DNA from: Oscillochloris sp.
GTDB lineage: Bacteria > Chloroflexota > Chloroflexia > Chloroflexales > Chloroflexaceae
Direction: 5' to 3'
DNA length: 62,723 nt
Assembly (NCBI GenBank): GCA_012032775.1
Contig: JAAUQO010000006.1
Coordinates: 1-62,723, forward strand
This document shows positions 57,666 to 60,570 of this stretch, one piece after another. Position numbers and translations under genes: made by a program. How positions within the stretch are numbered: position 1 is the first letter of the stretch; every line of letters begins with the position of its first letter. Below the pieces are notes generated by a model. The model was not told the DNA's origin. It did no database searches and was given only the letters and a program-made list of their open reading frames with translations.

Positions 57666-58688
57666 CTACAGTTTGCGGCCCAGGGCTATGGCAACGGCGG
57701 CAAGGCGCGGCATAAGCGTAGCGAAGTTTTCACAATTCAGTGATTGGCTGCCATCGGATCGCGCACGGTCGGGATCGGGGTGGACTTCGATGATAATGCC
57801 GTCGGCGCCTGATGCAATTGCGGCGAGGCTGAGCGGCGGCACCAGGTACCATTTGCCGGTGCCGTGGCTGGGATCGGCGAGCACCGGCAAGTGGGTGCGG
57901 CGCTTGGCGACGGCAACGGCGTTCAGGTCAAGCGTGTTGCGCGTGGCGGTCTCGAAGGTGCGAATACCGCGCTCGCACAGAATAACCTTCGGGTTGCCCT
58001 CTTGTTGCGCCACAACATACTCGGCCGAGAGCAGCCATTCCTCGATCGTAGCTGAGAGGCCGCGCTTGAGCAGCACCGGCAGGTTGGTGCGGCCGACTTC
58101 TTCCAACAGTTGGTAGTTCTGCATGTTACGGGCGCCGATCTGCAAGACATCGGCGTAGCGAGCTACGAGATCGACATCGTTCGGCGTCATAACCTCGGTG
58201 ACAATCGGCAGGCCGGTTTCGGCGCGGGCCTGTGCGAGCAGTTTGAGGCCGGCCTCGCCCATACCGCGGAAGGTGTAGGGTGAGGATCGCGGCTTGAATG
58301 CGCCGCCGCGCAGCATTGTTGCGCCGGCCTCGCGAACGGCGCGGGCCGTAGCCATAATTTGCTCTTCACTCTCGACGCTGCATGGCCCGGCGATGACCGT
58401 CAGGTGCGGGCCGCCGACGACCGTATCGCCGACGTTCACCAATGTATCTTCCTTGCGCAGTTCGCGCGACACCAGTTTGTACGGCTGTGTGATGCGGAGC
58501 GTCTCGCGCACGCCGCTGAAATGGGCAAGTTCTTCGCGCAGTTCGGGCGGGATCATGGCGCCGACGACACCGATCACGGTGCGTTCTTCGCCGCGAATGA
58601 GATGGCCGTGCAGTTGATGTTCTTCCAGCCGCTCCAACACCGTTGCGATCTGTTCCTCGGTCGATCCGGCCTGCATGACGACGATCAT
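57666..58688 (-). CDS. aroF: 3-deoxy-7-phosphoheptulonate synthase
   Basis: DAHP synthase (type I beta, 340 residues), which joins PEP and erythrose-4-phosphate at the entry to the shikimate pathway. An N-terminal ferredoxin-like regulatory domain (about 1-75) precedes the barrel. Barrel markers are [67 protein letters not shown] and [14 protein letters not shown] chose the ATG at 58688. It follows aroH by 114 bp and should share the Phe/Tyr attenuator upstream of aroH. Confidence 0.95.
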
Positions 58689-58802: not shown

Positions 58803-59171
58803 TTACCTCGTGCGGTCGGGCCGCAAAGATTCGGCGCCGTTGGTATAAATGTGAACGACTTCGTCGGCGCGGCGCTCGGTATTCCAGTGGACGAGGACGC
58901 GGATGCAGTAGGGCAGGCTGCCGGGAACGGTCATCTCGTGGCCGCACAGCAGGGCGGTGTCGAGCCATCCGAGTCCACGGGCGGCGACGGCGGGAAATTC
59001 GGCGTTCAGGTCGGGTGTGGTGGTGAAGATCGCACTGGCGATATCGTCGGGATGCAGGTTGTTGGCTTCGATCAGGCGTTCAAGCATGGCGCGGGTGGCA
59101 TCCAGGATCGCTTCGCGGGTGTTTTCTGCGCAGGTTGTGGCGCCGCGAATCCCTCGACAACGGACAGTCAT
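58803..59171 (-). CDS. aroH: Chorismate mutase, AroH type
   Basis: A 122-residue trimeric chorismate mutase that makes prephenate, the branch to Phe and Tyr. RGIRGATTCAENTREAIL at the start, TTTPDLNAEFPA, CIRVLVHWNT and LRPD at the end match the AroH family (active-site Arg in RGIRG and CIRV, Glu in GHEM). It is the first gene after a leader that codes a Phe/Tyr-rich peptide and carries a terminator hairpin, then leads to DAHP synthase. Regulation by Phe/Tyr supply is strongly implied. Confidence 0.96.
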   Translation of the reverse strand: MTVRCRGIRGATTCAENTREAILDATRAMLERLIEANNLHPDDIASAIFTTTPDLNAEFPAVAARGLGWLDTALLCGHEMTVPGSLPYCIRVLVHWNTERRADEVVHIYTNGAESLRPDRTR

Positions 59172-59209
59172 AGGTTTGCCCTCTCTCTGTTGGCGACAGA
59201 ATACAGAAA

Positions 59210-59237
59210 GGGCGTGAAGCCCGGTTGCTTCACGCCC
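59210..59237 (-). terminator. Attenuator hairpin of the aroH operon
   Basis: On the minus strand, 5' arm GGGCGTGAAGC (59237-59227), loop AACCGG and 3' arm GCTTCACGCCC (59220-59210), followed by TTTCTGT. It is a perfect 11-bp stem with a short, imperfect T-tract. It lies 39 bp before aroH and 27 nt after the leader-peptide stop codon, as in classical attenuators. Confidence 0.85.
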
Positions 59238-59263
59238 TCGAATGAGTTTCTGTCAGGTTCAGT

Positions 59264-59350
59264 TTACGAGACAGTGCGAAGCGACCGGGCCGTATGTAGC
59301 TCGGTAAAGTAATAAAAGTAGCCGTAAAACGTGTTTGCCAGATTCGGCAT
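59264..59350 (-). CDS. Phe/Tyr-rich leader peptide of the aroH operon
   Basis: A 28-residue open frame with ATG at 59350 and TAA at 59266-59264. Residues 8-15 read FYGYFYYF: seven of eight are Phe or Tyr. The codons that follow (TCG CTT CGC, residues 23-25) form GCTTCGC (59282-59276). This can pair with GTGAAGC (59233-59227) of the terminator's 5' arm, giving an antiterminator when a ribosome stalls at residues 8-15. AAGAAAGAG precedes the ATG. This is a regulatory peptide and needs no other function. Confidence 0.85.
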   Translation of the reverse strand: MPNLANTFYGYFYYFTELHTARSLRTVS

Positions 59351-59386
59351 TGGCTCTTTCTTACGATTCGCTGGTCGCTCGTGGGG

Positions 59387-59415
59387 AATATAGCATAGGC
59401 GCGCTATGGCGTCAA
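59387..59415 (-). promoter_or_regulatory. Promoter of the aroH operon
   Basis: On the minus strand, -35 TTGACG (59415-59410), 17-bp spacer and -10 TATATT (59392-59387). The predicted start near 59380 is about 30 nt before the leader-peptide ATG. Confidence 0.85.
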
Positions 59416-59498
59416 GATGGAGTATGATAAAGGCGCTACAGCGAAGATTTTTGCTGATCGGGGCGCTTGTGGCTCTAGGATCGGCAAAAGAAGAAGTT

Positions 59499-60570
59499 AT
59501 GTCGAAACGAAATCGCCAGTATTCTGCGCCGGCTAGCCTTGAATCACGGCAGGTCGAACTTGTGGTGGCCGATGGTTTGCAGCCGTTGGCGCAGACGGAA
59601 ATACGCCGCCTGACTCAGGGCGCACGCGTGCAGGAAGTCGGGCCGGGTGTGTTCGCCATGCGCTATCAGGGCGATCTGCGGGTGTTGTTGGAACTGCGGA
59701 CGGTGGCGAGTGCGGCCCTGGTGCGGCATTTTGCGGTGCCGCGGCCAAAAGCATTGTTGGGCGATGAACATCTGCGCGCGGCGCTGGCCAGCATCGGCCA
59801 GGTGCTGAAGTTGCATAAGCCGGGTACGTTCAAGACACTGTATTTGAGTGCGGCGGGCGCCGACTCGCCGGTGTTGACGCGTTTGAAGCACGAATACGCG
59901 ACGCGGCTGGGATTAAGCGTGGGCGAAGAGGATGGCGATCTGCTGTTGCGGTTGCGCCGGGCTGTTGAGGGCGATGGCTGGGAGTTGTTGGTGCGGATTG
60001 CCCCACGCCCGCTTGCGACGCGCTCCTGGCGTGTGTGTAATCTGGAAGGCGCGCTGAATGGGCCGGTGGCGTATGCCCTAGCCCTGCTGAGCGGCGGCAA
60101 GCCCAACGATGTGTTTTTGAATATTGCCTGCGGGTCGGGTTCGATCTTGATCGAGCGCTTGCTGACAGGGCCGGCGCGCCGGGCGATCGGCTGTGATACG
60201 AGTTTTGCGGCGTTGGGTTGCGCTAAAGCGAATGTTGAGGCGGCGGGTCTGAGCGATCACTGCGAGTTGCAACAATGGGATGCGACGGCGCTACCATTGT
60301 CGGATCGCAGCGTGAGTGCGTTGGCCGCCGATCTGCCCTTCGGCCATCTGGTTGGCTCGCATAGCGAGAATCTGACCCTTTACCCGGCATTGTTGGCCGA
60401 AGCGGCGCCGGGTGCGGCCCGGGCCGGCGCCCCTGTTTGCGGCACTCTCGCACGAAGTGCGCTTGATGGAGCGCCTGCTGACCGATGATCCGCGTTGGGA
60501 GGTGTTGCAACAGGTGCGGATCGACCAGGGCGGCTTGAATCCCCGTATCTATGTGCTGGAACGCAGATAG
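59499..60570 (+). CDS. THUMP-type RNA methyltransferase, frameshifted
   Basis: About 357 residues of the UPF0020/RlmL-TrmN-like methyltransferase family. The N-terminal half is a THUMP-like RNA-binding region, residues about 170-230 link to the catalytic part, and FLNIACGSGSILIERLL is the SAM motif, with DLPFGH as the catalytic (N/D)PP-like motif. It likely methylates the exocyclic amine of a guanine in tRNA or rRNA; the target is unknown. The frame changes near 60421-60428. Removing one base (or adding two) restores APLFAALSHEVRLMERLL to the stop at 60570. I chose the ATG at 59499; upstream ATG codons lie in the divergent aro promoter. Confidence 0.82.

Follow-up and report, generated by a model that had tools for sequence, protein, structure and literature searches.

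A probable ribosome-mediated attenuator with aromatic leader codons ahead of aroH and DAHP synthase in Oscillochloris and other Chloroflexota

We analysed 62,723 nucleotides of Oscillochloris sp. DNA (hereafter the window) and find that the region ahead of aroH and an adjoining DAHP synthase gene probably contains a ribosome-mediated transcription attenuator, which would make expression of both genes depend on how much charged tRNA-Phe and tRNA-Tyr is available; we put the probability of this reading at roughly 92%. The mechanism itself is known, and its occurrence in Chloroflexota is new as far as the literature searched shows. No earlier report of such an attenuator in the phylum was found in a search with most subscription journals outside its coverage, in agreement with the initial annotation of this DNA, which knew of no description there. 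Among described RNA families, no Rfam attenuator or T-box matched the window or 20 attenuator-bearing loci (L001 being the window's own) at the gathering score.

All parts of the element lie on the reverse strand, and most had already been recognised in the initial annotation. The promoter (59387..59415) is made up of TTGACG at 59415-59410, a 17-nt spacer and TATATT at 59392-59387, with TG preceding the -10 hexamer; it was annotated in this form and recovered by a promoter scan, in which 2 promoter-like sites were found in 2.3 kb against 0.5 expected. The leader peptide frame, read from the sequence (59264..59350, MPNLANTFYGYFYYFTELHTARSLRTVS), has the 28 codons first assigned to it, and its putative regulatory codons 8-15 (59306..59329) encode Phe-Tyr-Gly-Tyr-Phe-Tyr-Tyr-Phe (FYGYFYYF), also as annotated. 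Among frames of 12-60 residues on both strands of the window it is the only one with at least six F/Y/W in ten residues, and no strong Shine-Dalgarno sequence was seen in the window ahead of its ATG. The predicted intrinsic terminator (59208..59239), placed by scan, fold and covariation, is a hairpin followed by TCTGTATTCT; the 11-bp perfect stem noted previously lies inside it, and its end is 36 nt from the aroH ATG (59171). The bare count of terminator-like sites in a scan of the region does not exceed chance (3 against 2.9 expected), and the terminator at issue stands out because of its stem instead, with 13 pairs, 8 of them G-C, and -24.4 kcal/mol.

The antiterminator 5' segment (segment 2; 59276..59290, GCCCGGTCGCTTCGC) lies within the leader frame, and its partner, the 3' segment (59219..59233, GTGAAGCAACCGGGC), comprises the upper terminator 5' arm, the loop and the first bases of the 3' arm. 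A 7-bp pairing of GCTTCGC with GTGAAGC had been proposed here; this pairing stands, and its length is to be corrected, as the duplex GCCCGGT-C-GCTTCGC (59290-59276) with GTGAAGC-A-ACCGGGC (59233-59219) has 7 + 7 bp flanking one C-A mismatch, with one G-U among its 14 pairs. Antiterminator and terminator exclude one another, both using the terminator 5' arm. Taken as a whole, the leader RNA (59380-59204) has a predicted fold 4.6 sd more stable than that of its dinucleotide shuffles, of which 1 in 200 is as good.

Both genes hold the identities first given to them. The aroH gene (58803..59171, reverse strand) encodes an AroH-type monofunctional chorismate mutase of 122 aa (TIGR01796 at 128 bits, cut-off 82; PF07736) with PDB relatives 1xho and 1com. 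The DAHP synthase (57666..58688, reverse strand), type I with a ferredoxin-like domain and 340 aa long from the ATG at 58688, is matched by NF006421 (486 bits), TIGR01361, PF00793 and PF18152, as computed on 58682-57666. Divergent from the element, on the forward strand, is a UPF0020-type methyltransferase gene (59406-60570) that is seemingly frameshifted near 60430, its frame 59406-60488 appearing to resume as 60412-60570.

In the attenuation that we propose, RNA polymerase would start near 59380 and a ribosome would begin the 28-codon leader. With Phe or Tyr in short supply, the ribosome would stall in codons 8-15, leaving segment 2 free to pair with the emerging terminator 5' arm and loop, and transcription would continue into aroH. 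With good supply, the ribosome would reach the stop codon and cover segment 2, whereupon the terminator would form and transcription would end. We infer from sequence where the transcript begins and ends, that the leader is translated, that ribosomes stall in it and in which direction starvation acts, and predict that read-through rises when charged tRNA falls.

The upstream regions of aroH in relatives, whose comparison the initial annotation had called for, carry the same architecture. Of 41 genomes from the window's order, Chloroflexales, 40 have a recognisable aroH, as do 121 of 150 from its class, and the order set comprises 71 distinct aroH loci with upstream sequence from 70 genomes (72 rows, including L072, a repeat of L065); L121 and the order locus L125 were dropped, their upstream sequence being absent. 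Leader and terminator are both present at 68 of the 71 loci. The three exceptions are L060, which lacks the leader (2 F/Y/W in ten residues, with the aroH match in another context), L054, which keeps the leader and lacks the hairpin, possibly through an assembly gap, and L057, where VFSFYYGY is kept and the frame stops early. Considered separately, an upstream frame in which ten residues include five or more F/Y/W occurs at 68 of the 71 (69 of the 72 rows), with L041 and L061 reaching four, and the terminator hairpin occurs at 69 of 71, L054 not being counted, nor L060, whose hairpin call is weak (-9.4 kcal/mol). Leaders that keep the DNA and lose the Phe/Tyr frame, which had been named as evidence against the reading, were not seen among the 68 order loci. 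In 64 of the 72 order rows the DAHP synthase lies no more than 400 nt behind aroH; the gap is longer in 3, and in 5 the region is too short to tell. Two aroH copies with a leader motif before each occur in two genomes, as L040 and L041 in G027 (where both copies run into contig ends) and as L065 and a second copy within L072 in G129.

For quantitative comparisons, the 69 rows (68 distinct loci) remaining without L054, L057 and L060 were reduced to 58 non-redundant loci. The promoter pattern TTGA(C/T), 16-19 nt, TANNNT lies within 130 nt before the leader at 57 of these (37 of 2900 base shuffles), with a spacer of 17 nt in 48 and 18 nt in 9, and TG ahead of the -10 in 49. The proposed geometry, in which stalling frees and reaching the stop covers the segment containing GCTTCGC, had been put forward for the window, where the last aromatic codon lies about 20 nt from segment 2 and 24 nt separate the leader stop from the terminator. 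It extends to the relatives: measured from its first base, the last aromatic codon precedes segment 2 by a median of 20 nt (6-24), the stop codon ends a median of 22 nt beyond the start of segment 2, and the terminator begins a median of 26 nt (17-33) after the stop. Given the usual ribosome footprint, this spacing fits both halves of the proposed switch.

The aromatic runs of the 58 leaders contain a median of 6.5 aromatic codons (range 4-9) and in total 185 F, 163 Y and 20 W codons. To the Phe and Tyr codons first singled out as sensors, the comparison adds Trp codons in 14 of 58 leaders. Among 39 changes that affect aromatic codons in 20 disjoint near pairs of leaders, 25 stay aromatic, against 25% expected (p = 2e-7), with single-base changes falling at codon positions 3, 2 and 1 in 17, 8 and 1 cases; the choice of leaders by aromatic density biases this comparison towards aromatic codons. 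This pattern of substitution supports translation of the leader. Segment 2 behaves differently from the run, its core or family variant being read in three frames (at 40, 14 and 4 loci), and the constraint there is therefore on RNA and not on peptide. So the aromatic run appears to be constrained as codons and the segment that follows it as RNA.

These data also bear on nascent-peptide arrest of the TnaC type, in which the peptide itself would stall the ribosome on sensing a free aromatic amino acid or chorismate. Consistent with arrest, the end of the run is well conserved, many leaders having Tyr-Phe ahead of a Thr, Ser or Ala residue, and 49 of the 58 use TTT as their last aromatic codon (the codon at 59308-59306 in the window). 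Against it, both the length of the run and its mix of F, Y and W differ between leaders, and the peptide after the run shifts frame relative to the conserved RNA. We consider arrest improbable, at a few chances in a hundred; it fits worse than codon counting because of the variability of the run. As an observation on codon use, those 49 TTT codons are all the cases in which the last aromatic residue is Phe; in aroH, by contrast, TTT (62) and TTC (58) are used about equally.

The alternative RNA structures are conserved as well. At all 58 non-redundant order loci the 3' portion of the leader can form an antiterminator duplex with the terminator 5' arm; true partners give a mean of -21.6 kcal/mol and permuted ones about -18.6, and none of 5000 permutations does as well, although kinship among the sequences inflates this test, as it does the shuffle and covariation tests. 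The consensus fold predicts the terminator, in whose alignment 90.6% of cells are paired and double changes occur at 8 of 14 pairs; for the antiterminator, 85.1% of cells are paired and double changes occur at 5 of 13 pairs. Slid antiterminator registers yield 28 and 27 double-change cells against 23 in the true register, but only 55% of their cells are paired. For the three loop pairs alone, sliding by -3 columns gives 91.4% paired against 78.4% and a slightly higher covariation score; because the slid register does as well or better, these three pairs decide nothing and were dropped as a decisive test. Further upstream, a putative protecting 1:2 hairpin is weakly supported, with 39 of 5000 permutations doing as well, and is clear in some loci and not in others.

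Whether the hairpin would act as an intrinsic terminator bears on a second alternative, in which it controls aroH translation or access of Rho instead. This has some appeal in the window's family: the tract after the window's stem, TTTCTGTATTCT, is as weak as the initial annotation had remarked, tracts are likewise weak across much of that family, and the purine-rich aroH ribosome site lies only about 20-30 nt beyond the hairpin. That site is nevertheless outside the hairpin in the window, and in relatives the hairpin lies 17-155 nt upstream of aroH; moreover, canonical T-tracts are present in several relatives (e.g. TTTTTGTT), and T-tracts directly follow the stem in several families. Because the hairpin stands apart from the aroH start and T-tracts follow it in several families, translational control fits worse than transcription attenuation, and we regard translational or Rho-linked control as marginally less probable even than peptide arrest. 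A chance origin, in which an aromatic-rich frame happens to lie between an ordinary promoter and an ordinary terminator, can practically be set aside. Short frames are common (27 of 1080 dinucleotide shuffles and 5 of 72 reverse strands reach five F/Y/W in ten), and terminator-like sites in the region are no more numerous than chance predicts, but the comparative data already contradict this origin: the element is conserved at nearly all order loci, substitution in the run is of the coding type, the stems covary and the spacing is regular.

We built a covariance model from the order loci and searched 41 genomes with it. At E <= 6.5e-6 it matches in 40 of 41, once per aroH and always before aroH; being trained on order loci, the model was therefore bound to find most of them. 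The genome G027 has two matches and two aroH loci, and G002, in which no aroH was detected, has no match at this threshold. Among the matches listed for the 41 genomes under strict filters there are no other sites below E = 9e-5, the next starting at 9.3e-5. Seven weaker matches inspected as candidate second copies of the element elsewhere proved to be hairpins without an aromatic leader.

Beyond the order, the element is scattered. At aroH loci of other orders of the same class, 1 of 51 reaches five F/Y/W in ten residues. Of a named set of 80 loci, 50 were not recognised as Chloroflexales, and 25 of these 50 have both leader and terminator, with hairpin and T-tract judged by eye; their contigs are labelled Anaerolineae, Anaerolineaceae, Ardenticatenia, Ardenticatenaceae, Caldilineae, Caldilineales or Chloroflexi/Chloroflexota. 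Frames with five of ten at L261 (Desulfobacteraceae; without a terminator) and L273 (Dehalococcoidia) were not counted. A phylum search found aroH in 161 of 301 genomes, and from it we sampled 70 loci, 10 from the search and 60 hand-picked across families, 69 of them outside the order; leader and terminator are present at 13 of these 69, and L344 has a leader only. The named and phylum-sampled sets may overlap, and all positives outside the order are labelled or classed as Chloroflexota. At the 13 loci, the pairing of true partners is equalled by 4 of 5000 permutations, a test that leaves out L288 (an order locus fetched twice), L289 (whose frame overlaps trpA) and L344 (where no terminator was found). 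Antiterminators outside the order can be modest (-12.8 to -15.8 kcal/mol at L285, L335 and L352-L354), and the Tyr-type locus L359 pairs worse with its own antiterminator partner than with those of other loci.

In one family outside the order (f49; L323-L328 and L355-L360), Tyr-rich leaders precede aroH at 6 of 8 loci examined, with runs FYYYY, YGYYY, YGYY, YYY, YY and YY, five of them without Phe and five below the leader threshold; this is the second addition to the Phe/Tyr sensing first proposed. Downstream lies a prephenate dehydrogenase in 3 of 6 (fused to AroH in L324 and L325, a separate neighbour in L326) and a DAHP synthase in 3 of 6. A match of Tyr codons to tyrA is suggestive here and not strict, because three of the leaders precede DAHP synthase. 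Elsewhere, F/Y leaders stand ahead of aroH accompanied by prephenate dehydratase. At L330 and L349, AroH-type chorismate mutase and prephenate dehydratase domains occur in one open frame with an F/Y leader upstream.

Among 123 loci (121 outside the order), an upstream frame abuts aroH in 69, and in 42 this frame is TrpA. None of the 42 trpA-adjacent loci (e.g. L084, L312, L331 and L341) has a credible leader; the sole frame at threshold among them, at L289, overlaps trpA and looks spurious. Where aroH directly follows trpA without a leader, it is as if the gene had joined the trp operon. On balance we lean slightly towards an old aromatic attenuator of Chloroflexota, kept at loci whose transcript begins with aroH and lost from those that have aroH behind trpA. 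Its codon content would have been retuned, to Phe/Tyr mixtures that sometimes include Trp ahead of aroH-DAHP synthase and aroH-pheA, and to a Tyr-rich run in the family in which half of the aroH genes are fused to tyrA or have it next downstream.

Several known systems resemble the proposed element. The pheA gene encodes a chorismate mutase-prephenate dehydratase, of a fold other than that of AroH. According to PMC11802643, E. coli pheL-pheA likewise has a leader that senses Phe-tRNA before a gene with chorismate mutase activity (CM-PDT), and it differs in sensing Phe. The C. glutamicum aroR-aroF system (Neshat et al. 2014, as outlined in PMC11802643 and PMC4046766) likewise places a leader, there with Phe-Tyr-Phe, ahead of a DAHP synthase operon; according to these accounts, stalling raises transcription when Phe is short, and Tyr is without effect. 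That system belongs to Actinobacteria, and three aromatic residues are named in those accounts, against four to nine in the order of the window's element; the present operon moreover opens with an aroH-type chorismate mutase, and some relatives have Trp codons. Histidine leader attenuators of Firmicutes, as described in PMC9413887 and PMC2965389, are likewise outside Proteobacteria and were predicted by similar comparison, and differ in amino acid, phylum and genes. The 2010 study (PMC2965389) describes leader-peptide systems as known only from Proteobacteria and Actinobacteria, to which it then added Firmicutes. In a 2013 survey of Rfam motifs (PMC3766115), five Chloroflexi genomes were among those covered, and a gamma-proteobacterial origin of amino acid attenuators was suggested. 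The presence of such an element throughout one order, and at widely scattered loci elsewhere in Chloroflexota, speaks against a single recent origin. If the attenuator operates as predicted, a regulatory layer is gained for a group with few studied regulators, and its natural variants (Phe/Tyr, with Trp, and Tyr-rich) allow codon content to be compared with operon content.

Other forms of control were sought alongside. In lineages without the leader, a T-box was considered at 20 loci (14 of them from family f30), which gave no Rfam match except to an rRNA; a few of these below-threshold loci reach four aromatics in ten residues. Ahead of trpE (43 matches), 8 of 30 scanned loci have a frame with at least three Trp in ten residues within 1.65 kb. 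In the window's own genome, a Trp-rich frame (NWKWNWLW; L135:212-355, contig C268) runs over the beginning of trpS, which is read in a different frame.
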